DNA from: Phytopythium helicoides
Lineage: Eukaryota; Oomycota; Peronosporomycetes; Pythiales; Pythiaceae
Reading direction: 5' to 3'
DNA: 64,000 nucleotides
Assembly: GCA_024867545.1 (NCBI GenBank)
Contig: JANFNE010000006.1
Location: 1,324,001 to 1,388,000, forward strand
Made by a program: the position numbers and the translations under genes. Position 1 is the first letter of the stretch. The number at the start of each line of letters is the position of its first letter. Positions 173 through 22,587 of this stretch are shown here, piece after piece. A model generated the notes under the pieces. That model was not told where the DNA came from. It saw only the letters and a program-made list of their open reading frames with translations, and ran no database searches.

Positions 173-3100
173 TTACGACGACCAGCACACATGCTCCACC
201 CAGTCGATGGCGCTAGTAAAGTGCTCCGAGGAGCCGTCATAGCCGAACTTCTCGGCTGCCTCCTCAATGCAGTCCAAGAGTGCCTGAGCCTTGTCCGTCG
301 ATGACTTCTCCAGTTCGGCGCGCACAGCAGCGTCCTTGAGGCTCTGGATCTGATCGGCGTAGTAGTTGGCAATGCTCTCCTTGAACTGCTCCTTTGTCAT
401 GTGCTCCGCCATCGGGGGAAGCTCAGCCGGCTCCGGCGTCACGACCACAGTAGCGAAGTCACCGTTGCCAGTAGGAATCTCGAGGATCTCATTTCCGTCC
501 GCAGTTGTCGTCGAGTCCACCAGAACAGTCTCAATTCCATCATCCGTCACAACCTGAACAACGTCCTGACCGTCCAAAGCAGGGACGTCAGGAATAATGA
601 TGGTGGTCTCACCCTCCGACGTGGACACCTCCGTGATGACAGGGGCTTCGGTTTCCAACTCAATTGGTGAGCTCGGAACTTCGATCGGGGTGAAGCCACC
701 CTCGCCGTCTGGGATTTGAAGGATGGCGCCGTCGCTGGTCGAGATCTCCTCGACTAGTTCGGGAACATACTCGCCCTCGTCGTTCTGGATTTCAATGACC
801 ACTGTGCCGTCAACAGCGGGGACTTCTGGAACGATCAAATCGACATTGTCGCCATCACTGGTCGGCACAGAGAGAATCGACTCGTCAGGAACCGTAGCGG
901 CGATCTCCGAGTTTGCAACAACTTCCGACACATCAGATCCACGAAGACCTTGGGACGATGCCTGGCTATCCGAAATCTTCACGGTGAATGCTCCCCCGTC
1001 AGAATCAGGAATCGAGACAACAGCGCTATCATCGGTCGACGAGACAATGTCAGCGACAACAGGAACGAAGTCGCCGTGACCATTCTTCACTTCAACAACT
1101 TCTTCATCGTTGATTTCAACAGATGACTTGCGAATGTATCCGGTAGACGAGTCAGATGGAATCTCCACAACAGTCTGAGCACCAGTGTCCGGGTCCGACA
1201 CAACAAGCACATCCTCGCCAGTAGGAGACTCCACCACATCAGCGATCACAGGAACGAAGTCACCATCGTCGTTCTGAACCTGGACAACAACGTCCTCGCC
1301 GCTAGCAGGCAGATCCTCAGGAACAATCACAGGAATCACATCGCCGTCGGTCGTCGTAGCAGCAACCACGTCCGTGTCATCGCTTGGGATTGAATCAGCG
1401 CCAATGTCGATCGAGGGCGTCGAGTCGTCCGACGGGACTTCCACAATCGTCTGAGCACCCGTGTCCGGGTCCGCAACAACAAGCACATCCTCGCCGGTAG
1501 GAGACTCCACCACATCAGCGATCACAGGAACGAAGTCACCATCGTCGTTCTGAACCTGGACAACAACGTCCTCGCCGCTAGCAGGCAGATCCTCAGGAAC
1601 AATCACAGGAATCACATCGCCGTCGGTCGTCGTAGCAGCAACCACGTCCGTGTCATCGCTTGGGATTGAATCAGCGCCAATGTCGATCAAGGGCGTCGAG
1701 TCGTCCGACGGGACTTCCACAATCGTCTGAGCACCCGTGTCCGGGTCCGCAACAACAAGCACATCCTCGCCAGTAGGAGACTCCACCACATCAGCGATCA
1801 CAGGAACGAAGTCACCATCGTCGTTCTGAACCTGGACAACAACGTCCTCGCCGCTAGCAGGCAGATCCTCAGGAACGATCACGGGAATCACATCGCCGTC
1901 GGTTGTCGTAGCAGCAATCACGTCCGTGTCATCGCTCGGGATAAAATCATCCTGATGCAGGTACGGAGTATCATCGACTTCTGTCTCGTCCGAGTCTTGC
2001 AAGTATGGAATGTCAACGATCATGCTGTCAGAGTCTGAATCGACAACGTCAGCCAGAACAGAGACAAAATCGCCATTTTCATCTTGCACTTGAACAACTT
2101 CCTGATTCGCAGATCCGCGGAGTGCAGGCGTCGAGTCCTCCGACGGAACCTCCACCACAGTCTGCGCACCCGTGTCCGGGTCCGACACAACAAGCACTTC
2201 ATCGCCAGAAGGAGTCTCCACCACGTCCGCGATCACAGTCACAAGATCACCATCGTCGTTCTGCACTTCCACAGGGATCGAGTCGACGCCAGCAGGCACC
2301 TCCTCCGGAGCGACCACAGTCAGAGCATCGCCCTCGCTCGTCTCAGCAACAACCACGGTCGTGTCCTCGTCCGAAGCAGAGATCGAAGGCGTCGAGTCCT
2401 CCGACGGAACCTCCACCACAGTCTGAGCACCCGTGTCCGGGTCCGACACAACAAGCACTTCATCGCCAGAAGGAGTCTCCACCACGTCCGCGATCACAGT
2501 CACAAGCTCACCATCGTCGTTCTGCACCTCCACAGGGATCGAGTCGACGCCAGCAGGCACCTCCTCCGGAGCGACCACAGTCAGAGCATCGCCCTCGCTC
2601 GTCTCAGCGACAACCACGGTCGTGTCCTCGTCCGAAGCAGAGATCGAAGGCGTCGAGTCCTCCGACGGAACCTCCACCACAGTCTGAGCACCCGTGTCCG
2701 GGTCCGACACAACAAGCACTTCATCGCCAGAAGGAGTCTCCACCACGTCCGCGATCACAGTCACAAGCTCACCATCGTCGTTCTGCACTTCCACAGGGAT
2801 CGAGTCGACGCCAGCAGGCACCTCCTCCGGAGCGACCACAGTCAGAGCATCGCCCTCGCTCGTCTCAGCAACAACCACGGTCGTGTCCTCGTCCGAAGCA
2901 GAGATCGAAGGCGTCGAGTCCTCCGACGGAACCTCCACCACAGTCTGCGCACCCGTGTCCGGGTCCGACACAACAAGCACTTCATCGCCAGAAGGAGTCT
3001 CCACCACGTCCGCGATCACAGTCACAAGCTCACCATCGTCGTTCTGCACTTCCACAGGGATCGAGTCGACGCCAGCAGGCACCTCCTCCGGAGCGACCAC

Positions 3101-5641
3101 AGTCAGAGCATCGCCCTCGCTCGTCTCAGCAACAACCACGGTCGTGTCCTCGTCCGAAGCAGAGATCGAAGGCGTCGAGTCCTCCGACGGAACCTCCACC
3201 ACAGTCTGCGCACCCGTGTCCGGGTCCGACACAACAAGCACTTCATCGCCAGAAGGAGTCTCCACCACGTCCGCGATCACAGTCACAAGCTCACCATCGT
3301 CGTTCTGCACTTCCACAGGGATCGAGTCGACGCCAGCAGGCACCTCCTCCGGAGCGACCACAGTCAGAGCATCGCCCTCGCTCGTCTCAGCAACAACCAC
3401 GGTCGTGTCCTCGTCCGAAGCAGAGATCGAAGACGTCGAGTCCTCCGACGGAACCTCCACCACAGTCTGCGCACCCGTGTCCGGGTCCGACACAACAAGC
3501 ACTTCATCGCCAGAAGGAGTCTCCACCACGTCCGCGATCACAGTCACAAGCTCACCATCGTCGTTCTGCACTTCCACAGGGATCGAGTCGACGCCAGCAG
3601 GCACCTCCTCCGGAGCGACCACAGTCAGAGCATCGCCCTCGCTCGTCTCAGCAACAACCACGGTCGTGTCCTCGTCCGAAGCAGAGATCGAAGGCGTCGA
3701 GTCCTCCGACGGAACCTCCACCACAGTCTGCGCACCCGTGTCCGGGTCCGACACAACAAGCACTTCATCGCCAGAAGGAGTCTCCACCACGTCCGCGATC
3801 ACAGTCACAAGCTCACCATCGTCGTTCTGCACTTCCACAGGGATCGAGTCGACGCCAGCAGGCACCTCCTCCGGAGCGACCACAGTCAGAGCATCGCCCT
3901 CGCTCGTCTCAGCAACAACCACGGTCGTGTCCTCGTCCGAAGCAGAGATCGAAGGCGTCGAGTCCTCCGACGGAACCTCCACCACAGTCTGCGCACCCGT
4001 GTCCGGGTCCGACACAACAAGCACTTCATCGCCAGAAGGAGTCTCCACCACGTCCGCGATCACAGTCACAAGCTCACCATCGTCGTTCTGCACTTCCACA
4101 GGGATCGAGTCGACGCCAGCAGGCACCTCCTCCGGAGCGACCACAGTCAGAGCATCGCCCTCGCTCGTCTCAGCAACAACCACGGTCGTGTCCTCGTCCG
4201 AAGCAGAGATCGAAGACGTCGAGTCCTCCGACGGAACCTCCACCACAGTCTGCGCACCCGTGTCCGGGTCCGACACAACAAGCACTTCATCGCCAGAAGG
4301 AGTCTCCACCACGTCCGCGATCACAGTCACAAGCTCACCATCGTCGTTCTGCACCTCCACAGGGATCGAGTCGACGCCAGCAGGCACCTCCTCCGGAGCG
4401 ACCACAGTCAGAGCATCGCCCTCGCTCGTCTCAGCAACAACCACGGTCGTGTCCTCGTCCGAAGCAGAGATCGAAGGCGTCGAGTCCTCCGACGGAACCT
4501 CCACCACAGTCTGCGCACCCGTGTCCGGGTCCGACACAACAAGCACTTCATCGCCAGAAGGAGTCTCCACCACGTCCGCGATCACAGTCACAAGCTCACC
4601 ATCGTCGTTCTGCACTTCCACAGGGATCGAGTCGACGCCAGCAGGCACCTCCTCCGGAGCGACCACAGTCAGAGCATCGCCCTCGCTCGTCTCAGCAACA
4701 ACCACGGTCGTGTCCTCGTCCGAAGCAGAGATCGAAGGCGTCGAGTCCTCCGACGGAACCTCCACCACAGTCTGAGCACCCGTGTCCGGGTCCGACACAA
4801 CGAGCACTTGGTCACCACCTGGAGCTGACACCACGTCTGCCACCACAGGAACCAGGTCACCATCGTTGTTCTGCACTTGGACGACAATGCTATCGGCGCC
4901 AGCAGGCACATCCTCTGGAACGACGACAGGAAGGACGTCGCCCTCGCTAGTCGTAGCAGCAACCACGGTGGTGTCTTCAGTCGAAACAGCAGCCGTCGTA
5001 TCCACCTCCGGAGTGTTGTACTTCTCGAGAAGGTAGTCCGGAATCGAGATCGTCGCACGGTCGCAGTCGTCGAGTTTCGAGTACAGCTTGTCCAAGGTAT
5101 CAGACGTCACCTTCACTTTTTCCGACTTGAGCGCCTTGAACGCTGACACAGCGCAAGCCGAGTCCGCGTCGTACAGGTCGTTCAGCTGGGACACCAGGTC
5201 GTCCTTGATGTCATCCGGCAGACTCGAACCCGACACTTGGTCGGAGCCATCGTCGTAGTGCGTGCTCAGCTTCGTCAGGTACTCGGTCTGCGTGACGACG
5301 CCGTTCTTGTTCATATCGATCTCCGAGAACGACGGGTAGTACGGGTCGTCCAGCTCCGACACGAACGACGGGATCGACAGCGACGACCTCGCCTGAGCAC
5401 TCAGCTGCTGGGTCTCCTCACTGGCACTAGCCGTCGTCGCCGTCTCCGTCGTCGCAGCGCTCCCGCTTCGCATCGAAGCGTAGCCTACAACTCCCGACGC
5501 AGCCACCAGGCCGACCGTCGCGGCCGCGATGGCCACGCGCTTCTTCTGGCGGCGCCGAGACGAGCGGCGGTCAGGGGCAGCCACGCGGCGGATGAACGTG
5601 GTCTCCTCATTCTCGCTCCCGTAGTTGGAGGGAGTCTTCAT
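173..5641 (-). CDS. Giant acidic tandem-repeat membrane-anchored protein, copy 1
   Basis: Uninterrupted 1,822-residue reading frame. The start at 5641 (MKTPSNYGSENEE) is shared by all three paralogs here. Residues 1-35 are basic (RRSSRRRQKKR). A hydrophobic stretch at about 36-57 looks like a signal anchor, so the rest is probably extracellular or vesicular. Residues near 105-125 hold a canonical EF-hand loop (D-M-N-K-N-G-V-V-T-Q-T-E). Then come about ten 87-residue units that are nearly identical at DNA level, followed by about three 92-residue units of a related type, diverged segments, and a C-terminal Lys/Glu-rich helical domain of about 75 residues ending in VEHVCWSS. The repeats are rich in Asp, Glu, Val, Thr and Ser and look beta-strand forming. 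I know no enzyme family with this layout. A surface, cell-wall or adhesive-vesicle protein is an inference, by analogy with other large repeat proteins of oomycete spores. Confidence 0.85.
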   Translation of the reverse strand: MKTPSNYGSENEETTFIRRVAAPDRRSSRRRQKKRVAIAAATVGLVAASGVVGYASMRSGSAATTETATTASASEETQQLSAQARSSLSIPSFVSELDDPYYPSFSEIDMNKNGVVTQTEYLTKLSTHYDDGSDQVSGSSLPDDIKDDLVSQLNDLYDADSACAVSAFKALKSEKVKVTSDTLDKLYSKLDDCDRATISIPDYLLEKYNTPEVDTTAAVSTEDTTVVAATTSEGDVLPVVVPEDVPAGADSIVVQVQNNDGDLVPVVADVVSAPGGDQVLVVSDPDTGAQTVVEVPSEDSTPSISASDEDTTVVVAETSEGDALTVVAPEEVPAGVDSIPVEVQNDDGELVTVIADVVETPSGDEVLVVSDPDTGAQTVVEVPSEDSTPSISASDEDTTVVVAETSEGDALTVVAPEEVPAGVDSIPVEVQNDDGELVTVIADVVETPSGDEVLVVSDPDTGAQTVVEVPSEDSTSSISASDEDTTVVVAETSEGDALTVVAPEEVPAGVDSIPVEVQNDDGELVTVIADVVETPSGDEVLVVSDPDTGAQTVVEVPSEDSTPSISASDEDTTVVVAETSEGDALTVVAPEEVPAGVDSIPVEVQNDDGELVTVIADVVETPSGDEVLVVSDPDTGAQTVVEVPSEDSTPSISASDEDTTVVVAETSEGDALTVVAPEEVPAGVDSIPVEVQNDDGELVTVIADVVETPSGDEVLVVSDPDTGAQTVVEVPSEDSTSSISASDEDTTVVVAETSEGDALTVVAPEEVPAGVDSIPVEVQNDDGELVTVIADVVETPSGDEVLVVSDPDTGAQTVVEVPSEDSTPSISASDEDTTVVVAETSEGDALTVVAPEEVPAGVDSIPVEVQNDDGELVTVIADVVETPSGDEVLVVSDPDTGAQTVVEVPSEDSTPSISASDEDTTVVVAETSEGDALTVVAPEEVPAGVDSIPVEVQNDDGELVTVIADVVETPSGDEVLVVSDPDTGAQTVVEVPSEDSTPSISASDEDTTVVVAETSEGDALTVVAPEEVPAGVDSIPVEVQNDDGELVTVIADVVETPSGDEVLVVSDPDTGAQTVVEVPSEDSTPSISASDEDTTVVVAETSEGDALTVVAPEEVPAGVDSIPVEVQNDDGDLVTVIADVVETPSGDEVLVVSDPDTGAQTVVEVPSEDSTPALRGSANQEVVQVQDENGDFVSVLADVVDSDSDSMIVDIPYLQDSDETEVDDTPYLHQDDFIPSDDTDVIAATTTDGDVIPVIVPEDLPASGEDVVVQVQNDDGDFVPVIADVVESPTGEDVLVVADPDTGAQTIVEVPSDDSTPLIDIGADSIPSDDTDVVAATTTDGDVIPVIVPEDLPASGEDVVVQVQNDDGDFVPVIADVVESPTGEDVLVVADPDTGAQTIVEVPSDDSTPSIDIGADSIPSDDTDVVAATTTDGDVIPVIVPEDLPASGEDVVVQVQNDDGDFVPVIADVVESPTGEDVLVVSDPDTGAQTVVEIPSDSSTGYIRKSSVEINDEEVVEVKNGHGDFVPVVADIVSSTDDSAVVSIPDSDGGAFTVKISDSQASSQGLRGSDVSEVVANSEIAATVPDESILSVPTSDGDNVDLIVPEVPAVDGTVVIEIQNDEGEYVPELVEEISTSDGAILQIPDGEGGFTPIEVPSSPIELETEAPVITEVSTSEGETTIIIPDVPALDGQDVVQVVTDDGIETVLVDSTTTADGNEILEIPTGNGDFATVVVTPEPAELPPMAEHMTKEQFKESIANYYADQIQSLKDAAVRAELEKSSTDKAQALLDCIEEAAEKFGYDGSSEHFTSAIDWVEHVCWSS
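1150..1960 (-). repeat. 276-bp coding tandem repeat, about 3 units
   Basis: A second repeat type with a 276-bp period (92 residues). Its unit contains DLPASGEDVVVQVQNDDGDF and VESPTGEDVLVVADPDTG. The TGTCGATC landmark recurs at 1405 and 1681. It is recognisably related to the 261-bp unit (shared VQNDDG, SDPDTGAQT and VEVPS phrases) and is the older-looking, less amplified form. Copy 2 of the gene carries about two such units near 7250-7640. Confidence 0.85.
2127..4792 (-). repeat. 261-bp coding tandem repeat array, about 10 units
   Basis: The same phrase recurs every 261 bp (for example GTGTCCGGGTCCGACACAAC at 2172, 2433, 2694 and onward to 4782). The period is a multiple of three, so each unit adds 87 residues in frame. 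Units differ by only a few scattered bases. One marker change (GAAGACGTCG in place of GAAGGCGTCG) occurs near 3430 and again near 4213, exactly 783 bp or three units apart, showing that units were copied in threes. Confidence 0.95.
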
Positions 5642-5749
5642 GGCTGGCCGCTGGCAGGCTGGTCCCTCGCTCGGGTCGAGAGGCGCAGCGGCTGGCTTGG
5701 CTCGGTGTTTCCTCGACGGCGCAAATCGAGTAGTGAGCCGCTCGGTCGG

Positions 5750-6661
5750 CCGCGACGCCCATCAGTTGACTGGCGCCACCCTCCTCGCTCCATCTCCGCG
5801 ATCCGCCGCCACGCGCGACCCGTCGCCGACGCTTTGACTCGTCGCGCGATCTTCGCGGACGGGCGGATCCCGTCGCCGGTTGCAGCTCAAGATCGCGGAT
5901 CTTGACACCCACTGGAGGCCGCAGACGCCTCGCGCTGACGCTGATGGACGAAACGCAGCCACGCGCAGCTGCCCGCGCGCGCTGCGCCTCTCGTTCGGCG
6001 CCGTCACCGCATGCCAGCGACAGGTCGGCGACCAGCTTGAGGTGATGTGAGGAAGTGCTGCTTGTCGAAAGTACCGAGTGAGAACCGGTAGAGGCTCGGT
6101 TGAGATGGGTGCACTTCGGCAACTTCAATGTGCGGTGACTCGGGTGGATGGATGGCTAGAACTCGAGGGGACGTGTGATCGCATTGCTGGACAATTCTCC
6201 GTACACCGTACACGATAGCGTGCCTCAGCAGTAATGACTTTGCTCTGTGCTGGCCCGGATGCGTGTGTCCTTGCCGCGTTTGTTCGTGTGCGATCTTCAT
6301 TTGGGAGATCTTCTAGCACAAGCGGGTTTATGAGCAGACCCCATGAACAAAGAGACCCACAGTTTCTTCCGCTTTTTCAAGATTGTTGACGTGCAGCTCA
6401 ACCTCGCCTTGGCACACAACAAAGAACGAAACGCAGACGCCTGTTCCTGTCAAACGCAAGAATAGCGCGGTGACAAGGGTTTTGGCCATGAGTGTGGAGC
6501 TTGTGTCGTCGCTGACCTTGAAGGCATTTGGAACAACAGGACCGACCATGGGCTGCACATAGAGTTGCAGTGATCGTCGCACTTCGAGTTGATCATCATC
6601 TCGTCAAAGCTGGGATTTTCCATTGTTAACCTTGTCCTCGCTTCCCCATACGTTCATATGG
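5750..6661. other. Intergenic region between repeat-gene copy 1 and the fragment at 6662
   Basis: The first part is the upstream region of copy 1. The block at 5642-5749 matches the upstream of copy 2, after which similarity stops abruptly. An inverted repeat (arms CGCGCGAC at 5812-5819 and GTCGCGCG at 5841-5848) lies about 200 bp upstream of the start. From about 6330 to 6590 there is a weak coding candidate on the minus strand, listed separately. I see no other gene. Confidence 0.5.
6328..6582 (-). CDS. Possible small hypothetical protein or exon
   Basis: An open stretch on the minus strand reads like ordinary protein. From the ATG at the residues MVGPVVPN it gives about 73 residues, including DDTSSTLMAKTLVTALFLRL and a C-terminal part ending HGVCS. 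The spacing of DTSST, an alternating hydrophobic strand and a final acidic helix recalls small proteasome-assembly chaperones of the PSMG4 kind, but the match is weak. No clean upstream exon was found: an in-frame stop lies just before the acidic DQLEVRR segment. It may be a real two-exon gene, a relic, or chance. Confidence 0.25.
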   Translation of the reverse strand: MRRSLQLYVQPMVGPVVPNAFKVSDDTSSTLMAKTLVTALFLRLTGTGVCVSFFVVCQGEVELHVNNLEKAEETVGLFVHGVCS

Positions 6662-6853
6662 ATGAGTAACATTCTCAACAAGCAAACATCAACTTATGAA
6701 ACGCTGCGCAAGACCAAGTATGTATCAAGATCGCGAGTGTTGAGTTCATAATGTTTCGTTGCTGTATTTTGCGTTAGGCTGAATATCATCAACGACTATC
6801 CTAGCTTGATCCGCGTCCATGTTGCGCCATGGAGGGACTTCGCGAAGACGCAG
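6662..6853 (+). pseudogene. Two-exon gene fragment cut off at the 3' end of repeat-gene copy 2
   Basis: Exon 1 (6662-6717) begins MSNILNKQ. A 60-bp intron with GTATGT and TTAG ends (6718-6777) is followed by an exon in matching phase reading LNIINDYPSLIRVHVAPWRD. The next donor-like site is at 6854 (GTATGC), but no plausible following exon appears before the tail of the repeat gene at 6969. The APWRDF phrase faintly recalls the N-terminus of PRA1-family Rab acceptors (xPWxEF), an uncertain assignment. It looks like the 5' remnant of a gene whose 3' half was displaced when the repeat gene arrived. Confidence 0.35.
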
Positions 6854-6968
6854 GTATGCAATGTGAAAACATGCAGCAGGATGCCGTGGTTCACGCACGC
6901 GAGAACGGCGCTCCCGATACTGGACACATCACCATCAATGCTCACTCAGCATTTAATGCCGAGAGCCT

Positions 6969-9900
6969 TCAAGCCGACCAGCAGACGCTGCCCACCCAGT
7001 CGATAGCGTCCGAGAAATGAGGAGCCTGCTCATACACACCGTACCAGCCGAACTTCTCCGCTGCCTCATTGATGCAGTCCTCGAGCGCCTGGAGCTTGGC
7101 TGGGATCGATGCAGCATCGACTTCAGCTTGCAGCGCAGTGGACTTCAGCTCTTGGAGCTGGTCAGCGAAGTGCTCCTCAATCTGCTCCTTGAATTGGTCC
7201 TTAGTCATGTACTCAGCAGCGTTGTTCTCTTCCGCTCCACGAAGAGCTGGCGTCGAGTCGTCCGACGGGACTTCCACAATCGTCTGAGCACCAGTGTCCG
7301 GGTCCGACACAACAAGCACATCCTCGCCAGTAGGAGATTCCACCACATCAGCGATCACAGGAACGAAGTCACCATCGTCGTTCTGAACCTGGACAACAAC
7401 GTCCTCACCGCTAGCAGGCAGATCCTCAGGAACGATCACAGGAATCACATCGCCGTCGGTCGTCGTAGCAGCAACCACGTCCGTGTCATCGCTCGGGATA
7501 GAATCAGCGCCAATGTCGATCGAGGGCGTCGAGTCGTCCGACGGGACTTCCACAATCGTCTGAGCACCAGTGTCCGGGTCCGCAACAACAAGCACATCCT
7601 CGCCAGTAGGAGACTCCACCACATCGGCAATAACTTTAACGAAATCACCATCGTCGTTCTGCACCTGGACAACAACGCTGTCACTGTTATCGACGATGGA
7701 ATCGGGAATATTGACCAGAAGTTCGTCGCCATCAGTCGTCGTACCAACAACAAGACTCGGGGTGTCGTCAGAAGCAGAGATTGTTTCGTCAGCAGAAGTT
7801 CCACCAGAGAACGGAACCTCAAGCAACTTGCTGTCGGAGGTGGTATCAACAACATCCGCGATCGTTGTCACAAAATTACCACTATCATCCAGAATCTGGA
7901 CAACTTCTTGGTCAGCAGACCCACGAAGACCCGGGGTTGGAATATCCGACGGAACCTCCACAATCGTCTGAGCACCCGTGTCCGGGTCCGACACAACAAG
8001 CACTTCATCGCCAGAAGGAGTCTCCACCACGTCCGCGATCACAGTCACAAGATCACCATCGTCGTTCTGCACTTCCACAGGGATCGAGTCGACGCCAACA
8101 GGCACCTCCTCCGGAGCGACCACAGTCAGAGCATCGCCCTCGCTCGTCTCAGCAACAACCACAGTCGTGTCCTCGTCCGAAGCAGAGATCGAAGGCGTCG
8201 AGTCCTCCGACGGAACCTCCACCACAGTCTGAGCACCCGTGTCCGGGTCCGACACAACAAGCACTTCATCGCCAGAAGGAGTCTCCACCACGTCCGCGAT
8301 CACAGTCACAAGATCACCATCGTCGTTCTGCACTTCCACAGGGATCGAGTCGACGCCAGCAGGCACCTCCTCCGGAGCGACCACAGTCAGAGCATCGCCC
8401 TCGCTCGTCTCAGCAACAACCACGGTCGTGTCCTCGTCCGAAGCAGAGATCGAAGGCGTCGAGTCCTCCGACGGAACCTCCACAATCGTCTGAGCACCCG
8501 TGTCCGGGTCCGACACAACAAGCACTTCATCGCCAGAAGGAGTCTCCACCACGTCCGCGATCACAGTCACTAGCTCACCATCGTCGTTCTGCACTTCCAC
8601 AGGGATCGAGTCGACGCCAGCAGGCACCTCCTCCGGAGCGACCACAGTCAGAGCATCGCCCTCGCTCGTCTCAGCAACAACCACGGTCGTGTCCTCGTCC
8701 GAAGCAGAGATCGAAGGCGTCGAGTCCTCCGACGGAACCTCCACCACAGTCTGAGCACCCGTGTCCGGGTCCGACACAACAAGCACTTCATCGCCAGAAG
8801 GAGTCTCCACCACGTCCGCGATCACAGTCACAAGCTCACCATCGTCGTTCTGCACCTCCACAGGGATCGAGTCGACGCCAGCAGGCACCTCCTCCGGAGC
8901 GACCACAGTCAGAGCATCGCCCTCGCTCGTCTCAGCAACAACCACAGTCGTGTCCTCGTCCGAAGCAGAGATCGAAGGCGTCGAGTCCTCCGACGGAACC
9001 TCCACCACAGTCTGAGCACCCGTGTCCGGGTCCGACACAACAAGCACTTCATCGCCAGAAGGAGTCTCCACCACGTCCGCGATCACAGTCACAAGCTCAC
9101 CATCGTCGTTCTGCACCTCCACAGGGATCGAGTCGACGCCAGCAGGCACCTCCTCCGGAGCGACCACAGTCAGAGCATCGCCCTCGCTCGTCTCAGCAAC
9201 AACCACAGTCGTGTCCTCGTCCGAAGCAGAGATCGAAGGCGTCGAGTCCTCCGACGGAACCTCCACCACAGTCTGAGCACCCGTGTCCGGGTCCGACACA
9301 ACAAGCACTTCATCGCCAGAAGGAGTCTCCACCACGTCCGCGATCACAGTCACAAGCTCACCATCGTCGTTCTGCACCTCCACAGGGATCGAGTCGACGC
9401 CAGCAGGCACCTCCTCCGGAGCGACCACAGTCAGAGCATCGCCCTCGCTCGTCTCAGCAACAACCACGGTCGTGTCCTCGTCCGAAGCAGAGATCGAAGG
9501 CGTCGAGTCCTCCGACGGAACCTCCACCACAGTCTGAGCACCCGTGTCCGGGTCCGACACAACAAGCACTTCATCGCCAGAAGGAGTCTCCACCACGTCC
9601 GCGATCACAGTCACAAGCTCACCATCGTCGTTCTGCACTTCCACAGGGATCGAGTCGACGCCAACAGGCACCTCCTCCGGAGCGACCACAGTCAGAGCAT
9701 CGCCCTCGCTCGTCTCAGCAACAACCACGGTCGTGTCCTCGTCCGAAGCAGAGATCGAAGGCGTCGAGTCCTCCGACGGAACCTCCACCACAGTCTGAGC
9801 ACCCGTGTCCGGGTCCGACACAACAAGCACTTCATCGCCAGAAGGAGTCTCCACCACGTCCGCGATCACAGTCACAAGCTCACCATCGTCGTTCTGCACT

Positions 9901-12900
9901 TCCACAGGGATCGAGTCGACGCCAACAGGCACCTCCTCCGGAGCGACCACAGTCAGAGCATCGCCCTCGCTCGTCTCAGCAACAACCACGGTCGTGTCCT
10001 CGTCCGAAGCAGAGATCGAAGGCGTCGAGTCCTCCGACGGAACCTCCACCACAGTCTGAGCACCCGTGTCCGGGTCCGACACAACAAGCACTTCATCGCC
10101 AGAAGGAGTCTCCACCACGTCCGCGATCACAGTCACAAGCTCACCATCGTCGTTCTGCACTTCCACAGGGATCGAGTCGACGCCAGCAGGCACCTCCTCC
10201 GGAGCGACCACAGTCAGAGCATCGCCCTCGCTCGTCTCAGCAACAACCACGGTCGTGTCCTCGTCCGAAGCAGAGATCGAAGGCGTCGAGTCCTCCGACG
10301 GAACCTCCACAATCGTCTGAGCACCCGTGTCCGGGTCCGACACAACAAGCACTTCATCGCCAGAAGGAGTCTCCACCACGTCCGCGATCACAGTCACTAG
10401 CTCACCATCGTCGTTCTGCACTTCCACAGGGATCGAGTCGACGCCAGCAGGCACCTCCTCCGGAGCGACCACAGTCAGAGCATCGCCCTCGCTCGTCTCA
10501 GCAACAACCACGGTCGTGTCCTCGTCCGAAGCAGAGATCGAAGGCGTCGAGTCCTCCGACGGAACCTCCACCACAGTCTGAGCACCCGTGTCCGGGTCCG
10601 ACACAACAAGCACTTCATCGCCAGAAGGAGTCTCCACCACGTCCGCGATCACAGTCACAAGCTCACCATCGTCGTTCTGCACCTCCACAGGGATCGAGTC
10701 GACGCCAGCAGGCACCTCCTCCGGAGCGACCACAGTCAGAGCATCGCCCTCGCTCGTCTCAGCAACAACCACGGTCGTGTCCTCGTCCGAAGCAGAGATC
10801 GAAGGCGTCGAGTCCTCCGACGGAACCTCCACCACAGTCTGAGCACCCGTGTCCGGGTCCGACACAACAAGCACTTCATCGCCAGAAGGAGTCTCCACCA
10901 CGTCCGCGATCACAGTCACAAGCTCACCATCGTCGTTCTGCACCTCCACAGGGATCGAGTCGACGCCAGCAGGCACCTCCTCCGGAGCGACCACAGTCAG
11001 AGCATCGCCCTCGCTCGTCTCAGCAACAACCACGGTCGTGTCCTCGTCCGAAGCAGAGATCGAAGGCGTCGAGTCCTCCGACGGAACCTCCACAATCGTC
11101 TGAGCACCCGTGTCCGGGTCCGACACAACAAGCACTTCATCGCCAGAAGGAGTCTCCACCACGTCCGCGATCACAGTCACTAGCTCACCATCGTCGTTCT
11201 GCACTTCCACAGGGATCGAGTCGACGCCAGCAGGCACCTCCTCCGGAGCGACCACAGTCAGAGCATCGCCCTCGCTCGTCTCAGCAACAACCACGGTCGT
11301 GTCCTCGTCCGAAGCAGAGATCGAAGGCGTCGAGTCCTCCGACGGAACCTCCACCACAGTCTGAGCACCCGTGTCCGGGTCCGACACAACAAGCACTTCA
11401 TCGCCAGAAGGAGTCTCCACCACGTCCGCGATCACAGTCACAAGCTCACCATCGTCGTTCTGCACCTCCACAGGGATCGAGTCGACGCCAGCAGGCACCT
11501 CCTCCGGAGCGACCACAGTCAGAGCATCGCCCTCGCTCGTCTCAGCAACAACCACGGTCGTGTCCTCGTCCGAAGCAGAGATCGAAGGCGTCGAGTCCTC
11601 CGACGGAACCTCCACCACAGTCTGAGCACCCGTGTCCGGGTCCGACACAACAAGCACTTCATCGCCAGAAGGAGTCTCCACCACGTCCGCGATCACAGTC
11701 ACAAGCTCACCATCGTCGTTCTGCACCTCCACAGGGATCGAGTCGACGCCAGCAGGCACCTCCTCCGGAGCGACCACAGTCAGAGCATCGCCCTCGCTCG
11801 TCTCAGCAACAACCACGGTCGTGTCCTCGTCCGAAGCAGAGATCGAAGGCGTCGAGTCCTCCGACGGAACCTCCACAATCGTCTGAGCACCCGTGTCCGG
11901 GTCCGACACAACAAGCACTTCATCGCCAGAAGGAGTCTCCACCACGTCCGCGATCACAGTCACAAGCTCACCATCGTCGTTCTGCACTTCCACAGGGATC
12001 GAGTCGACGCCAACAGGCACCTCCTCCGGAGCGACCACAGTCAGAGCATCGCCCTCGCTCGTCTCAGCAACAACCACGGTCGTGTCCTCGTCCGAAGCAG
12101 AGATCGAAGGCGTCGAGTCCTCCGACGGAACCTCCACCACAGTCTGAGCACCCGTGTCCGGGTCCGACACAACAAGCACTTCATCGCCAGAAGGAGTCTC
12201 CACCACGTCCGCGATCACAGTCACAAGCTCACCATCGTCGTTCTGCACTTCCACAGGGATCGAGTCGACGCCAACAGGCACCTCCTCCGGAGCGACCACA
12301 GTCAGAGCATCGCCCTCGCTCGTCTCAGCAACAACCACGGTCGTGTCCTCGTCCGAAGCAGAGATCGAAGGCGTCGAGTCCTCCGACGGAACCTCCACCA
12401 CAGTCTGAGCACCCGTGTCCGGGTCCGACACAACGAGCACTTGGTCACCACCTGGAGCTGACACCACGTCTGCCACCACAGGAACCAGGTCACCATCGTT
12501 GTTCTGCACTTGGACGACAATGCTATCGGCGCCAGCAGGCACATCCTCTGGAACGACGACAGGAAGGACGTCGCCCTCGCTAGTCGTAGCAGCAACCACG
12601 GTGGTGTCTTCAGTCGAAACAGCAGCCGTCGTATCCACCTCCGGAGTGTTGTACTTCTCGAGAAGGTAGTCCGGAATCGAGATCGTCGCACGGTCGCAGT
12701 CGTCGAGTTTCGAGTACAGCTTGTCCAAGGTATCAGACGTCACCTTCACTTTTTCCGACTTGAGCGCCTTGAACGCTGACACAGCGCAAGCCGAGTCCGC
12801 GTCGTACAGGTCGTTCAGCTGGGACACCAGGTCGTCCTTGATGTCATCCGGCAGACTCGAACCCGACACTTGGTCGGAGCCATCGTCGTAGTGCGTGCTC

Positions 12901-13274
12901 AGCTTCGTCAGGTACTCGGTCTGCGTGACGACGCCGTTCTTGTTCATATCGATCTCCGAGAACGACGGGTAGTACGGGTCGTCCAGCTCCGACACGAACG
13001 ACGGGATCGACAGCGACGACCTCGCCTGAGCACTCAGCTGCTGGGTCTCCTCACTGGCACTAGCCGTCGTCGCCGTCTCCGTCGTCGCAGCGCTCCCGCT
13101 CCGCATCGAAGCGTAGCCTACAACTCCCGACGCAGCCACCAGGCCGACCGTCGCGGCCGCGATGGCCACGCGCTTCTTCTGGCGGCGCCGAGACGAGCGG
13201 CGGTCGGGGGCAGCCACGCGGCGGATGAACGTGGTCTCCTCATTCTCGCTCCCGTAGTTGGAGGGAGTCTTCAT
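6969..13274 (-). CDS. Giant acidic tandem-repeat membrane-anchored protein, copy 2
   Basis: Single-exon gene of 2,101 residues when started at 13274, the same MKTPSNYGSENEE start as its paralogs. The frame stays open another 112 codons upstream, but those codons are GC-rich leader sequence. Layout matches copy 1: basic N-terminus, hydrophobic anchor at about 36-57, EF-hand loop, then seventeen 87-residue units, a few diverged units, two 92-residue units and the C-terminal helical domain. That domain (MTKDQFKEQIEEHFADQLQE ... VCWSA) is closer to copy 3 (shared FGWYGVYEQAPHF) than to copy 1. The first kilobase is nearly identical to copy 1, while the 3' part differs, so the gene looks like a mosaic. 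Function unknown; a surface or vesicle protein is inferred. Confidence 0.85.
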   Translation of the reverse strand: MKTPSNYGSENEETTFIRRVAAPDRRSSRRRQKKRVAIAAATVGLVAASGVVGYASMRSGSAATTETATTASASEETQQLSAQARSSLSIPSFVSELDDPYYPSFSEIDMNKNGVVTQTEYLTKLSTHYDDGSDQVSGSSLPDDIKDDLVSQLNDLYDADSACAVSAFKALKSEKVKVTSDTLDKLYSKLDDCDRATISIPDYLLEKYNTPEVDTTAAVSTEDTTVVAATTSEGDVLPVVVPEDVPAGADSIVVQVQNNDGDLVPVVADVVSAPGGDQVLVVSDPDTGAQTVVEVPSEDSTPSISASDEDTTVVVAETSEGDALTVVAPEEVPVGVDSIPVEVQNDDGELVTVIADVVETPSGDEVLVVSDPDTGAQTVVEVPSEDSTPSISASDEDTTVVVAETSEGDALTVVAPEEVPVGVDSIPVEVQNDDGELVTVIADVVETPSGDEVLVVSDPDTGAQTIVEVPSEDSTPSISASDEDTTVVVAETSEGDALTVVAPEEVPAGVDSIPVEVQNDDGELVTVIADVVETPSGDEVLVVSDPDTGAQTVVEVPSEDSTPSISASDEDTTVVVAETSEGDALTVVAPEEVPAGVDSIPVEVQNDDGELVTVIADVVETPSGDEVLVVSDPDTGAQTVVEVPSEDSTPSISASDEDTTVVVAETSEGDALTVVAPEEVPAGVDSIPVEVQNDDGELVTVIADVVETPSGDEVLVVSDPDTGAQTIVEVPSEDSTPSISASDEDTTVVVAETSEGDALTVVAPEEVPAGVDSIPVEVQNDDGELVTVIADVVETPSGDEVLVVSDPDTGAQTVVEVPSEDSTPSISASDEDTTVVVAETSEGDALTVVAPEEVPAGVDSIPVEVQNDDGELVTVIADVVETPSGDEVLVVSDPDTGAQTVVEVPSEDSTPSISASDEDTTVVVAETSEGDALTVVAPEEVPAGVDSIPVEVQNDDGELVTVIADVVETPSGDEVLVVSDPDTGAQTIVEVPSEDSTPSISASDEDTTVVVAETSEGDALTVVAPEEVPAGVDSIPVEVQNDDGELVTVIADVVETPSGDEVLVVSDPDTGAQTVVEVPSEDSTPSISASDEDTTVVVAETSEGDALTVVAPEEVPVGVDSIPVEVQNDDGELVTVIADVVETPSGDEVLVVSDPDTGAQTVVEVPSEDSTPSISASDEDTTVVVAETSEGDALTVVAPEEVPVGVDSIPVEVQNDDGELVTVIADVVETPSGDEVLVVSDPDTGAQTVVEVPSEDSTPSISASDEDTTVVVAETSEGDALTVVAPEEVPAGVDSIPVEVQNDDGELVTVIADVVETPSGDEVLVVSDPDTGAQTVVEVPSEDSTPSISASDEDTTVVVAETSEGDALTVVAPEEVPAGVDSIPVEVQNDDGELVTVIADVVETPSGDEVLVVSDPDTGAQTVVEVPSEDSTPSISASDEDTTVVVAETSEGDALTVVAPEEVPAGVDSIPVEVQNDDGELVTVIADVVETPSGDEVLVVSDPDTGAQTVVEVPSEDSTPSISASDEDTTVVVAETSEGDALTVVAPEEVPAGVDSIPVEVQNDDGELVTVIADVVETPSGDEVLVVSDPDTGAQTIVEVPSEDSTPSISASDEDTTVVVAETSEGDALTVVAPEEVPAGVDSIPVEVQNDDGDLVTVIADVVETPSGDEVLVVSDPDTGAQTVVEVPSEDSTPSISASDEDTTVVVAETSEGDALTVVAPEEVPVGVDSIPVEVQNDDGDLVTVIADVVETPSGDEVLVVSDPDTGAQTIVEVPSDIPTPGLRGSADQEVVQILDDSGNFVTTIADVVDTTSDSKLLEVPFSGGTSADETISASDDTPSLVVGTTTDGDELLVNIPDSIVDNSDSVVVQVQNDDGDFVKVIADVVESPTGEDVLVVADPDTGAQTIVEVPSDDSTPSIDIGADSIPSDDTDVVAATTTDGDVIPVIVPEDLPASGEDVVVQVQNDDGDFVPVIADVVESPTGEDVLVVSDPDTGAQTIVEVPSDDSTPALRGAEENNAAEYMTKDQFKEQIEEHFADQLQELKSTALQAEVDAASIPAKLQALEDCINEAAEKFGWYGVYEQAPHFSDAIDWVGSVCWSA
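7951..12423 (-). repeat. 261-bp coding tandem repeat array, about 17 units
   Basis: Same unit as in copy 1, with landmarks at 7978, 8239, 8500 and so on every 261 bp to 12415. Variant markers show a three-unit higher-order repeat: the CCACAATCGTC variant (giving TIVEVP) lies near 10310, 11093 and 11876, each 783 bp apart, and the CACCTCC/CACTTCC variant alternates in the same rhythm. A PVG-for-PAG change clusters in neighbouring units (near 9661 and 9922, and again near 12010 and 12270). Confidence 0.95.
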
Positions 13275-13382
13275 GGCTGGCCGCTGGCAGGCTGGTCCCT
13301 CGCTCGGGTCGAGAGGCGCAGCGGCTGGCTTGGCTCGGTGTTTCCTCGACGGCGCAAATCGAGTAGTGAGCCGCTCGGTCGG

Positions 13383-17988: not shown

Positions 17989-18540
17989 GACGAAGAGCGA
18001 GCATCAACATTAGGTGTTTCATCACTCGAGGATACGATTTCACGCGGATTTGATGCTCTTCCTCGTGACTGTACGACTGCAACCAAGTCAAGCGCGCTTC
18101 AACTTGGCGTGGACGGGGAACATGGCAGCACAAAAATCTCCTTTCCAAGGTCCCAAGCATTAACCATAAAATGTATCACACCATCATTTGACAATCGTTT
18201 ATATCGGGGTAACTCCTTATAGAGGCAAAGAGATCTTCAAGCGTCGTAGAGCCCTGGCCAGTCGATCTTTCGAGCTGCTATTGACCAGTCGCCGCCGCAA
18301 CCGCCACGCGCGACTCGCTGACGAGTCGCGCGATCTTGTAAAGGGTCGGGAGCGGATCCTCGCTGGCAGCTCATGGAGTGGCGCGATCGGTAGGTCAAAG
18401 AGGTGATGGCAACGGGATCTTTGGCTCCATGAGGCGCCTCCATGGTCACTACTCGATTTGCGCCGTCGAGGAAACACCGAGCCAAGCCAGCCGCTGCGCC
18501 TCTCGACTCGAGCGAGGGACCAGCCTGCCAGCGGCCAGCC
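17989..18540. promoter_or_regulatory. Upstream region of repeat-gene copy 3
   Basis: No gene seen. The last 100 bp before the start of copy 3 (from about 18442) match the leader of copies 1 and 2. A perfect inverted repeat lies at 18307-18332: arms CGCGCGACTCG and CGAGTCGCGCG around a 4-base loop. It is about 210 bp upstream of the ATG, at a position comparable to related sites upstream of the other two copies. Confidence 0.45.
18307..18332. repeat. Perfect 11-bp inverted repeat
   Basis: Arms 18307-18317 and 18322-18332 are exact reverse complements separated by CTGA. The right arm extends into GACGAGTCGCGCGATCTT (18320-18337), whose near-copies occur at 13508-13525 and 5836-5853. It could be a protein-binding palindrome, a hairpin or the end of a small dispersed repeat. 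Confidence 0.6.
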
Positions 18541-21500
18541 ATGAAGACTCCCTCCAACTACGGGAGCGAGAATGAGGAGACCACGTTCATCCGCCGTGTG
18601 GCTGCCCCTGACCGCCGCTCGTCTCGGCGCCGCCAGAAGAAGCGCGTGGCCATCGCGGCCGCGACGGTCGGCCTGGTGGCTGCGTCGGGAGTTGTAGGCT
18701 ACGCTTCGATGCGGAGCGGGAGCGCTGCGACGACGGAGACCGCGACGGCAGCTGGTTCCAACGAGGAGACCCAGCAGTTGAACACGCAAAACAAGGAGGC
18801 GCTGTCGATCCCGTCGTTCGTGTCGGAGCTGGACGACCCGTACTACCCGCCGTTCTCGGAGCTGGATGCAAACAACAATGGTGTCGTCTCACAGATGGAA
18901 TTTCTCGTCAAGCTGAGTGCTCATTATGAGGCCAGCACCGGTCAGGTAAACGACTCGGATCTGCCGGATGACATCAAGGAAAGTCTCGTTGACCAGCTTG
19001 GAGACAAGTACGACGTAGACTCACAATGCACGATCAACTCGTACAAGGCATTGAAGAGCTCTTCGACGGTGGTGAATCAAAACGGTCTCGCTAAGCTCTA
19101 TGAAAAGATGGACCTCTGTGATCATCCTACGATCTCGATCCCGGACTTCCTTGTTGACAAGTACAACCTGCCTCCATCTGAGGCAACTGCCGGGTCTACA
19201 ACATCAGGCGCTGGTACGGACACGACAACGACAGAAGTCACAACTCAGGTCGTGACAGTCACGACTGACAGTGGCGAGACTGTTCCTATCGTCGTGCCGC
19301 AGATTCCGGATGGCGTCGACCAGACCATTGTCCAAGTCCCGAATGCCAATGGTGACTACGTGTCTGTGATCGCTGATGTTGTTACGACATCGACGGGCGA
19401 TCAGGTTCTCCAGATTCCGAACGGTGAAGGTGGAGTGACCACGATCGGGGTACCATCAGGTTCGGCGTCTGGCGGTAGCTCAACTTCTACTGAGGACAAC
19501 ACTCAGGTCGTTACTGTTACGACCGGCAGCGGTGAGGCTGTCCCCGTTGTCGTGCCGCAGATTGAAGACGGAGCCGACACTGCCGTCGTTCAAGTGCAGA
19601 ATGCTGATGGCGACTTCGTGTCCGTGACCGCTGATGTCATTACGACGTCGACTGGTGAACAGGTTCTGCAGATTCCGGATGGTGAGGGTGGTGTGACGAC
19701 CGTCGAGGTACCATCGGGATCGGCATCCGCGAGCGGTTCAAAGCCCACCGACAGCACTCAAGTGTTGTCTGTCACGACCGATAGCGGCGAGAATGTCCCC
19801 ATCGTTGTGCCTCCGATCCCCGATGGAGCTGACCAGACCATTGTCCAAGTCCCGACTTCCGATGGCGACTTTGTTTCTGTGATCGCTGATATTGTCACGA
19901 CCTCGACTGGTGACCAGATTCTGCAGATTCCGGATGGTGAAGGTGGTGTGACTACCGTCGAGATACCATCGGGATCGGCATCCGCCAGTTCAGCGTCTAC
20001 CGAGGATAACACCCAAGTGTTGACGGTCACAACCGACAGCGGGGAGACTGTCCCTATCGTTGTGCCGGAGATCCCGGATGGCGCCGACACTGCCATCGTC
20101 CAAGTCCCGAATTCCGATGGCGACTTCGTCTCCGTGACCGCTGATGTCGTTACGACGTCGACAGGTGACCAGATTCTCCAGATTCCGGACGGTGAGGGTG
20201 GTGTGACGACCGTCGAGGTACCATCGGGATCGGCGTCCGCAGGTACCACAACCACCACTGAGGATACCGATGTTGATGATATCATCGAGTCTCTCGGTGG
20301 ATACGAGGACGATAATCTTGCAAGCCCGGATTCCACGGAGACTGTTGTGCAAGTGACGACTTCGGATGGCGAACAGATGAATGTCATTGTCCCGGATGCC
20401 CCCATTGTTGATGGCCAAGGAGTTGTTGAGATCCCGACGGACGACGGCTACCAGCCTATTGTTATCTCCGAAATCCCGACCAGTGACGGTGGTGCCATCC
20501 TCCAGATTCCGGATGGCGATGGTGGCTTCACTTCTGTTCAGGTCACCTCGGCTCCGATTGACGCAACGACCGACGACACTGCTGACACAGTTGTTCAGGT
20601 TGCGACTGATGATGGCGGTGAAATCTCTATTGTTGTACCGGATGTTCCGGCTGAGGATGGCAAGGATGTTGTTCAGATCCCGACTGCTGACGGATACGAG
20701 ACAATCACTGTGGACGCCATTGATACTGGTGATGGAAACGAGGTTCTGTTGATTCCAGATGGCGAGGGTGGCGTAACTCCGGTCCAAGTCACTGATAGCT
20801 CGGCCGATACGACAACGACTGATGACTCTACGCAGACAATCTCCGTCACGACTGCCGATGGAGTCGAGGTGCCAGTGATCATCCCCGACGTTCCTGCTGA
20901 GAACGGTCAGGACGTTGTCGAGATCAAGAACGCGGATGGCGACTACGTGCCGGTCACGGTTGATGTCATTGAGACCCAGGACGGCGGTGAGATCATGATG
21001 ATCCCCGACGGAGCCGGTGGTGTAACGCCTGTTGAGGTGACGCCGGAGCCAGATGTGTCTACGACGGACACGAACCCGGTGGTTTCCGTCACCACCGACG
21101 ACGGTGATGTCGTGCCTGTGATTATCCCCGATGTTCCAGCCGTTGATGGACAGGATGTTGTGGAGATCCAGAACTCGGAGGGAGAGTTTGTGCCAGTGAC
21201 GGTCGATGTCATTGAGACTGAGGACGGCGGACAAATTCTCCAGATCCCAGACGGGGAGGGTGGTGTGACCCCTGTCAAGGTTACCGCGACCCCGACCATT
21301 TCTGACACGACGGCAACCACGACCGGTGACGTCTTTGAGATTAAGGACAAGGAGATCATCGGTATCGCCAACGAAGATGGTCAGTACGTGCCGAACGTCG
21401 CAGATGTTATCATTACCAAGGACGGCAGCGAGATCCTTCAGATCCCGAGCCCAGACGGTGGTGTGATTTCTGTCACAGTCATGAATGGCGAGTCATCAGG

Positions 21501-22587
21501 CTCAAAGGGAGATAGCGGCCAAGTCATGACCGTGGCGACGGGTGGTGGCGATGTTGTGCCGGTGATCATTCCGGATGTGCCTGCTGTTGACGGCAAGGAC
21601 GTCGTTGAGGTCCAAGACTCGAACGGCCAGTTCGTTCCCATCACGGTCGATGTCATCGAGACGGCGGATGGCGGCGAGTTTATCCAAATCCCGGATGGCA
21701 GTGGTGGCGTCACGACGGTAGAGGTGACCTCAGCTCCAGACACGACGACAACCGGTTCATCCTCTGGGTCCACACCATCTCTTCGTGGCACTGACGTCGA
21801 CGATGTGATCAAAGACATTGGAGGAGCTACGCTTGACTCGGATATCGCAGACGCCATTCCTGATGACACGATTCTCACTGTTCCAACAACGGATGGCAAT
21901 GATGTTGCGGTGATCATCCCGGCGGCTCCAGCTGTTGACGGAAACGTAGTCATCGAGGTTCAAAAGGATGATGGCGAGTTTGTCTCGGAGCTTGTGACCG
22001 CGATTCCGACCGACAACGGGAACATTCTGCAGATCCCTGATGACAATGGAGGCTTCACTTCGATCCACGTGACTGATGCGCCAAGTGCGACAGAGCAGAC
22101 GACAGACGCCCCAGCGATTGTCCAGGTTCCGTCTGGCGAAGGTAGCGGCACGATCATCATCATCCCAGATGTCCCCCCTATCGGTGGACAAGATGTTGTT
22201 CAGATCCAGACCGATGACGGTATCAAGACGATCCTGGTCGACGAAACACCGACGGACGATGGTGGCCAGATTCTTCAGATCCCCGATGACAACGGCGGCT
22301 TCATTAGTGTTGAGGTGACCAAGGCGCCAGTCGATGTCCCGGATTACATGACAAAGGACCAGTTCAAGCAGCAACTCGCGGACTTTTATGCGGACAAGCT
22401 GCACGGATTCAAGGACTCTGCGGTCCAGGCAGAGCTCGAGAGTGACTCGATCGCTACCAAGATCCAGGCGCTCGACGACTGCATTGAGCAGGCCGCAAAC
22501 AAATTCGGCTGGTACGGCGTGTACGAGCAGGCTCCTCACTTCGAGAACGCCGTCGACTGGGTGCAGCACGTTTGCTGGGCTGCCTAG
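18541..22587 (+). CDS. Acidic repeat membrane-anchored protein, copy 3 (diverged repeats)
   Basis: Single-exon gene of 1,348 residues on the opposite strand from copies 1 and 2. The first 60 residues are almost the same as theirs (basic N-terminus, hydrophobic anchor). An EF-hand loop D-A-N-N-N-G-V-V-S-Q-M-E follows near residue 105. The rest has roughly a dozen repeats of 75-95 residues with a common skeleton (VTTxSGExVPIVVPxIPDG, then VQVxNxDGDFVSV, then VLQIPDGEGGVTTVEVPSGS), clearly related to but much more diverged than the 261-bp units. The C-terminal domain (YMTKDQFKQQLADFYADKL ... HVCWAA) is conserved. This copy probably shows the ancestral state before homogenisation. Function unknown; probably extracellular or vesicular. 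Confidence 0.85.
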   Translation: MKTPSNYGSENEETTFIRRVAAPDRRSSRRRQKKRVAIAAATVGLVAASGVVGYASMRSGSAATTETATAAGSNEETQQLNTQNKEALSIPSFVSELDDPYYPPFSELDANNNGVVSQMEFLVKLSAHYEASTGQVNDSDLPDDIKESLVDQLGDKYDVDSQCTINSYKALKSSSTVVNQNGLAKLYEKMDLCDHPTISIPDFLVDKYNLPPSEATAGSTTSGAGTDTTTTEVTTQVVTVTTDSGETVPIVVPQIPDGVDQTIVQVPNANGDYVSVIADVVTTSTGDQVLQIPNGEGGVTTIGVPSGSASGGSSTSTEDNTQVVTVTTGSGEAVPVVVPQIEDGADTAVVQVQNADGDFVSVTADVITTSTGEQVLQIPDGEGGVTTVEVPSGSASASGSKPTDSTQVLSVTTDSGENVPIVVPPIPDGADQTIVQVPTSDGDFVSVIADIVTTSTGDQILQIPDGEGGVTTVEIPSGSASASSASTEDNTQVLTVTTDSGETVPIVVPEIPDGADTAIVQVPNSDGDFVSVTADVVTTSTGDQILQIPDGEGGVTTVEVPSGSASAGTTTTTEDTDVDDIIESLGGYEDDNLASPDSTETVVQVTTSDGEQMNVIVPDAPIVDGQGVVEIPTDDGYQPIVISEIPTSDGGAILQIPDGDGGFTSVQVTSAPIDATTDDTADTVVQVATDDGGEISIVVPDVPAEDGKDVVQIPTADGYETITVDAIDTGDGNEVLLIPDGEGGVTPVQVTDSSADTTTTDDSTQTISVTTADGVEVPVIIPDVPAENGQDVVEIKNADGDYVPVTVDVIETQDGGEIMMIPDGAGGVTPVEVTPEPDVSTTDTNPVVSVTTDDGDVVPVIIPDVPAVDGQDVVEIQNSEGEFVPVTVDVIETEDGGQILQIPDGEGGVTPVKVTATPTISDTTATTTGDVFEIKDKEIIGIANEDGQYVPNVADVIITKDGSEILQIPSPDGGVISVTVMNGESSGSKGDSGQVMTVATGGGDVVPVIIPDVPAVDGKDVVEVQDSNGQFVPITVDVIETADGGEFIQIPDGSGGVTTVEVTSAPDTTTTGSSSGSTPSLRGTDVDDVIKDIGGATLDSDIADAIPDDTILTVPTTDGNDVAVIIPAAPAVDGNVVIEVQKDDGEFVSELVTAIPTDNGNILQIPDDNGGFTSIHVTDAPSATEQTTDAPAIVQVPSGEGSGTIIIIPDVPPIGGQDVVQIQTDDGIKTILVDETPTDDGGQILQIPDDNGGFISVEVTKAPVDVPDYMTKDQFKQQLADFYADKLHGFKDSAVQAELESDSIATKIQALDDCIEQAANKFGWYGVYEQAPHFENAVDWVQHVCWAA

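Follow-up and report, generated by a model that had tools for sequence, protein, structure and literature searches.

Results

The 64,000-nucleotide stretch of DNA from the oomycete Phytopythium helicoides analyzed here (the window; positions 1,324,001 to 1,388,000 of contig JANFNE010000006.1, assembly GCA_024867545.1) carries three genes resembling the LPV (large peripheral vesicle) storage proteins of Phytophthora zoospores. The window contig, called C57 below, belongs to a 49.06-Mb assembly of 100 contigs, and a second copy of the locus, about 92% identical, lies on another contig, C90. Genes 1 and 2 are encoded on the minus strand: gene 1 (173..5641) is an intronless open frame of 1822 aa, about 187 kDa, and gene 2 (6969..13274) encodes 2101 aa from an MKTPS start, about 215 kDa. 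Gene 3 (18541..22587, with its ATG at 18541) is inverted, lying on the plus strand; it encodes 1348 aa. The reading frames of all three genes are uninterrupted along their full length.

Genes 1 and 2 each contain a long array of perfect 261-bp units encoding 87 aa: ten units in gene 1 (2126..4735, minus strand) and 17 in gene 2 (7932..12368, minus strand). These are the counts given by the original prediction, a reading of the window's letters alone, whose coordinates span both arrays. Tandem Repeats Finder (TRF) reports the corresponding rows at 2126-4975 and 7945-12608. Each array is headed by a diverged first unit, termed unit 0 (4736..4996 in gene 1 and 12369..12629 in gene 2, both minus strand). 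A second, smaller array of 276-bp units (1164..1949, minus strand) is present in gene 1, with three units in the window and two in the C90 copy, and gene 2 carries repeats of the same 276-bp type (7249..7751, minus strand). The original prediction had described the long-array units as almost identical both within and between the two genes, and the mean differences bear this out: 0.56% within gene 1, 1.56% within gene 2 and 1.43% between them on C57. The corresponding mean is 0.78% for the C90 genes, while units compared across contigs differ by 3.28% in gene 1 and 3.04% in gene 2. The third paralog, 5 kb away, had been said to keep strongly diverged repeats; its TRF period is 255, with 3.9 copies and 78% matches, and gene 3 contains neither 261-bp units nor a long array of near-identical repeats.

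The similarity between genes 1 and 2 extends well beyond the arrays. An ungapped match between positions 2126-5753 and 9759-13386 has 99.04% identity (35 differences in 3628 positions). Besides the array it covers the N-terminal half, which is unique sequence, and 112 bp 5' of the ATG; that the 5' half of both genes is matched went unreported in the original prediction. On C57 the genes are identical at all 366 positions of codons 72-193 and at all 330 of the linker together with unit 0. The match ends 17 bases upstream of the putative core promoter of gene 1. Farther upstream than about -110 bp, identity is 42-51% between the two genes on the same contig, while the same gene compared across contigs is 89-93% identical. 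Within the block, 450 bp (5287-5736) align with the inverted gene 3 as well, at 92.7%.

The block starts near the sequence TCACTACTCGATTTGC, which lies 94-95 nt 5' of the ATG in all six genes of the two contigs. This sequence fits 11 of the 13 specified positions of the oomycete core-promoter motifs INR and FPR, as given in PMC3599244, with their usual gap of 2 nt; counting both window strands, 46 of 127,985 positions reach an INR+FPR score as good. The predicted core promoters lie at 5721..5736 (minus strand) in gene 1, 13354..13369 (minus strand) in gene 2 and 18446..18461 (plus strand) in gene 3, where the block common to the three genes begins. The motif match suggests that the block begins at the core promoter.

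A search of the P. helicoides genome with gene 3 returned 30 matches from 21 scored candidates, all of them on C57 and C90. Read in reverse, the segment C90:385001-455000 is collinear with the window region; its main blocks are 91.5-94.0% identical, and it carries all three genes intact in the same arrangement. The four copies of genes 1 and 2 on the two contigs therefore allow sites that separate the contigs to be counted against sites that separate the genes. The counts (contig-separating to gene-separating) are 2:0 in the last 95 nt before the ATG, 7:0 in codons 1-71, 20:0 in codons 72-193 and 24:0 in the linker and unit 0. They then reverse, to 0:64 in the C-terminal domain and 0:70 in the 250 bp downstream. 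The latter comparison includes 117 gapped columns and the paralogs are hardly alignable there, so the C-terminal domain is the better witness of the two. Cross-splits number zero in all six segments. From the core promoter to the array, the sites thus divide 53:0 by contig, with paralogs on the same contig closer to each other than to their counterparts on the other contig; in the C-terminal domain and 3' flank they divide 134:0 by gene. A front that groups by contig and a back that groups by gene imply that the duplicates predate the split of the contigs, and that their fronts and arrays were homogenized later, separately on each contig.

The arrays carry the same signal. Genes 1 and 2 have 10 and 17 units on C57 and 9 and 21 on C90, and all four arrays are in frame. 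Array length thus varies between the contigs, where the original prediction expects large variation between strains. Their 57 units comprise 19 DNA types and 12 protein types. No DNA type is common to both contigs (13 occur on C57 and 6 on C90), while genes 1 and 2 share one type on C57 and two on C90. Among the 53 units left when the last unit of each array is set aside, 9 variable codons are silent only and 7 change an amino acid, and at four codons C57 and C90 have no state in common. The unit types vary along the arrays in ordered patterns. On the unit tree, the contig label costs 2 changes and the gene label 7. The approximately unbiased (AU) test rejects placing the gene-1 units of C57 and C90 in one clade (p-AU 0.0205, three sets of identical rows being left free) but does not reject a clade of all C57 units (p 0.54). 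In three of the four arrays the last unit clusters across contigs, as expected where array edges escape homogenization.

The site patterns indicate that gene 3 takes part in the homogenization over its first 71 codons or so (18541..18753, plus strand). In codons 1-71 of the six genes, 5 sites part the three C57 genes from the three C90 genes and none singles out gene 3; in codons 72-193, gene 3 is set apart from the others at 86 sites. The 95 nt preceding the gene 3 ATG are probably homogenized too, on weaker evidence.

The GC content of third codon positions (GC3) varies along the genes. All six have 0.81-0.86 in codons 1-70. Genes 1 and 2 then have 0.67-0.76 from codon 71 through the array and 0.57-0.61 after it; in gene 3 it is 0.64-0.68 in codons 71-300 and 0.59-0.60 in codons 300-1150. 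Six other open reading frames of the window lack a comparable 5' rise, one of them being high (0.79) throughout. This pattern is compatible with GC-biased conversion, which it does not prove: we keep the idea as tentative because the last 197-198 codons of gene 3, a non-homogenized part, also have a GC3 of 0.70.

Homologues of the three proteins were retrieved with residues 1-500 of gene 3, which yielded 8 proteins, and with a P. cactorum homologue (P. standing for Phytophthora in the species names that follow), which yielded 23. By their given names all 8 and all 23 come from Phytophthora or Nothophytophthora; these are the best word-sharing candidates, the ones that were scored, and absence elsewhere is not implied. 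They include the 'Storage protein LPV, partial' of P. megakarya, 32% identical to gene 3 over 558 columns (E 1e-64), and the 'putative storage protein LPV' of P. cinnamomi (E 5e-11), whose match is confined to the repeats. Homology to LPV-named proteins covers the N-terminal region and the repeats. The 'Ankyrin repeat domain-containing protein 60' name borne by three P. boehmeriae homologues is likely an annotation slip, the two read by eye being without evident ankyrin repeats.

Published primers connect these homologues with experimentally studied LPV genes. The quantitative PCR primers for PnLpv published in PMC3869178 translate to EEARAK and QPPHFQ. Both words occur in the P. nicotianae homologue PPTG_22853, in that order and 31 residues apart (at 683 and 714). 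Among the 8 homologues found with gene 3, one has the exact EEARAK and six the exact QPPHFQ; neither is present in 120 control proteins, a narrow set of chromodomain helicases and their relatives. The window genes are without the exact primer words but have the homologous C-terminal domain, genes 2 and 3 carrying EQAPHF. For P. cinnamomi, primer LPV3 F (PMC3919710) encodes VQTVDV, a word that 5 of the 8 homologues contain and the controls lack. Primer LPV3 R gives a five-residue word that gene 3 has on both contigs but that the 8 homologues do not have, and adds little. PPTG_22853 is annotated with 748 aa, against a PnLpv of more than 400 kDa on blots, and its array has probably collapsed in that assembly. 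Record lengths within the family also vary widely in P. cactorum, at 1510 and 818 aa for one subfamily and 756, 931 and 1359 aa for the other, through either array variation between strains or collapse in assembly.

The proteins have one hydrophobic segment (residues 36-54) and four cysteines, and 23% of the residues in genes 1 and 2 are acidic. An EF-hand-like domain is indicated by a partial, weak match (E 0.037), by a loop seen in the sequence and by the name 'EF-hand domain-containing' on homologues. The Pfam matches of genes 1 and 2 (Ribosomal_S6e, APEH_N, OAF_N and others) look like sums of weak repeat matches, no single stretch passing alone, and the one match in a PDB sequence search (E 0.36) was taken as chance. 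In the structure model the N-terminal domain is confidently helical, with a predicted local distance difference test (pLDDT) score of about 87-95 over residues 21-130 of the model, and the repeats, mostly at pLDDT of only about 40-70, are modeled as six-strand beta units. Foldseek returned no PDB match to the model at E 0.001 or better. The C-terminal domain is poorly modeled (mean pLDDT 51). We claim no fold for these proteins.

Other duplications and repeats were seen in passing. Ankyrin-repeat open reading frames occupy 15694-17988 of the window, between genes 2 and 3. A tandem duplicate containing an EamA-type transporter gene (55979-57233 and 58928-60193) is 94.3% identical over 1271 columns. 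The window also holds a CHD gene (39639-44507), whose helicase part (residues 560-1160) has its best named match in Globisporangium ultimum, at 90%, with one further entry at 97%. Outside the window, contig C14 has four tandem proteasome-subunit matches (1182197-1208123), spaced by about 8-9 kb.

Discussion

We consider it likely that the three genes are old paralogs of the LPV family that evolve in concert through non-crossover gene conversion and array slippage. The pattern points to conversion as the mechanism. By non-crossover conversion, genes 1 and 2 would exchange a block that begins at the core promoter and extends over the 5' leader, the membrane-anchor segment, the EF-hand-like domain and the repeat array. 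With the inverted gene 3 the exchange would be limited to a shorter stretch, up to about codon 71. Within the arrays, slippage or unequal (sister) exchange would multiply single unit types and alter the copy number; such a process is needed besides conversion, since array copy number has changed. Exchange would not reach any sequence upstream of the core promoter, nor the C-terminal domain and 3' flank. If the repeat serves as bulk cargo, constraint on its length may be relaxed. The original prediction of exchange between loci combined with recent amplification is supported, and the C90 copy adds that the homogenization is contig-specific.

Other explanations of the identity between genes 1 and 2 fit this pattern less well. 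The complete identity of codons 72-193 and of the linker and unit 0 on C57 is what a fresh duplicate would look like, and might suggest a recent tandem duplication whose 3' ends later diverged or were replaced, with no exchange between loci. Such a history is hardly credible, because the gene-specific C-termini and 3' flanks on both contigs (134:0) show that the genes predate the contig split, yet their fronts group by contig, and because the regions upstream of the paralogs are unrelated on both contigs. Unequal crossing over between the tandem genes could also act here: genes 1 and 2 are in direct orientation, their arrays are unequal, and exchange within the arrays must change copy number. 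As the main agent, it would be expected to delete or duplicate the intervening stretch and to swap flanks, but both contigs keep the gene order and gene-specific upstream regions and 3' ends, and the inverted gene 3 takes part as well. Non-crossover conversion is indicated by the tract bounded on both sides (42-51% identity upstream between genes 1 and 2, 0:134 in the C-terminal domain and 3' flank), by the kept gene order and flanks on both contigs and by the inverted partner: the two-sided boundary disfavors a single crossover, and a crossover with the inverted gene 3 would rearrange the locus. We therefore hold crossing over as the main agent to be unlikely. Near-identical arrays longer than short reads are error-prone, and the P. 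nicotianae homologue of 748 aa, set against the more than 400 kDa of PnLpv, suggests collapsed arrays in that assembly. An artefact of assembly or polishing, in which paralog reads correct one another or arrays are collapsed or expanded, is nevertheless very unlikely to explain the pattern. The four arrays differ in length and all stay in frame, their unit types are ordered, and the contig-diagnostic sites are clean in both genes of each contig, where cross-mapping of reads would be expected to mix the haplotypes too.

Several observations weigh against the reading of concerted evolution and LPV membership, or limit it. The array lengths and their homogeneity rest on one assembly, in which polishing can smooth paralogs. 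Homogenization is weaker on C90: genes 1 and 2 differ there at 11 of 366 positions in codons 72-193, and their 6 differences in 110 upstream positions make them no more alike than the same gene across contigs. In the 95-nt leader of the six genes, 2 sites split the contigs and none separates gene 3, while 6 occur in a single gene-3 copy only; in the 110 bp ahead of its ATG, gene 3 resembles its counterpart on C90 (92.7%) more than it does gene 1 (89.1%). On the unit tree, 7 of the 10 C57 gene-1 units form a group of their own (support 85), and the AU test does not reject a clade of all ten (p-AU 0.43). The expectation of the original prediction that units would mix between the two genes is accordingly upheld in part: types are shared on each contig and gene-1 units do not form a cross-contig clade, but most C57 gene-1 units stand apart, so that mixing is real but incomplete on C57. 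As for the proteins, a tree of the N-terminal domain places the six from C57 and C90 with a second LPV subfamily of Phytophthora (SH-like approximate likelihood-ratio support 99, with long branches meeting), and not with PnLpv, the experimentally studied member. We therefore file them as homologues of the LPV family and not as PnLpv orthologues. None of the sources seen deals with that subfamily experimentally, so that the function of the window proteins is inferred, and the predicted masses, 138-251 kDa, are below the more than 400 kDa of PnLpv.

For the two contigs, the likeliest reading is a pair of retained haplotypes from a heterozygous genome; an origin from a partial hybrid is less likely. 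Four other gene pairs that look doubled, read by eye from searches with MCM, proteasome and CCT genes, are 94.4-97.4% identical over the stretches fetched, and many other members found in the same searches look single, which favors haplotypes. Whole-genome doubling was also considered as the source; with many genes single, retained haplotypes are likelier. Diverged second copies (about 3-9%) of some regions and genes were seen for C57/C90, C5/C52, C36/C21, C42/C1 and C68/C23.

Our best guess is that the proteins are a reserve stored inside zoospore vesicles. PnLpv is a glycoprotein of more than 400 kDa, with two forms on immunoblots, which is retained in large peripheral vesicles at encystment while other cargo is secreted, according to PMC3869178; the storage role is suggested by this retention. 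The original prediction had implied an exposed protein, which is not supported by the homology to LPV storage proteins and the position of PnLpv inside vesicles. The corresponding alternative is a surface adhesin whose repeat number tunes its reach or its escape from recognition. The single hydrophobic segment, following a basic stretch, could make a type II membrane protein, and long serine/threonine-rich repeats are generally common in adhesins. We find this doubtful, given that two homologues are named storage protein LPV, that PnLpv stays in its vesicles, and that the 57 units amount to only 12 protein types.

The LPV glycoproteins of Phytophthora (PcLpv, PnLpv) have the same N-terminus, EF-hand-like domain and C-terminal domain as the window genes, and they too carry near-identical repeats within a gene, with 8 anchors spaced 167 aa apart in P. 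infestans and 5 spaced 173 aa apart in P. cactorum; two shorter Phytophthora records hold only one repeat anchor. The repeat unit differs, being 87 aa in the window genes and about 166-173 aa in Phytophthora LPV. Among the titles and abstract openings listed, none dealt with concerted evolution of LPV genes, although such an account may have been published. The structure of P. cinnamomi LPV genes was reportedly described in a 2001 paper, which may already cover repeats and gene number. A parallel in process is the hnwd family of Podospora anserina, in which, as PMC2873952 describes, repeats are homogenized within and between members and repeat number varies, as here. According to the same source, the WD repeats of hnwd are also under diversifying selection for recognition, whereas the arrays described here show few amino-acid changes, and the exchanged block here, unlike that of hnwd, includes the 5' leader and a unique N-terminal domain.

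The P. helicoides cluster is a clear further example of a known process, the concerted evolution of repeats, and an unusually well resolved one. The added resolution comes from seeing homogenized and untouched parts of one cluster on two diverged contigs, from a block beginning at the core promoter and from a short exchange with an inverted paralog. The discrepancy between a 748-aa gene model and a protein of more than 400 kDa suggests that such arrays may be badly assembled, and it serves as a warning that array lengths of the LPV family in some assemblies may be unreliable.

A broader reading, which we put forward as a tentative possibility, is that exchange between paralogs on the same chromosome is far faster than exchange between homologous chromosomes. 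Each haplotype or subgenome would then be internally homogenized, sharing none of the 19 unit types and no state at four unit codons with the other. An exchange block beginning at the core promoter would let the transcribed front be shared even with an inverted neighbor while upstream control is protected, and the high GC3 in the homogenized parts of genes 1 and 2 (0.67-0.86, against 0.57-0.61 after the array) would be the mark of GC-biased conversion. The locus connects a group of neighboring oomycete genes with a class of zoospore storage proteins already known, and it offers a natural experiment: a three-gene cluster caught twice, in which rates of exchange between paralogs and between haplotypes are directly comparable.

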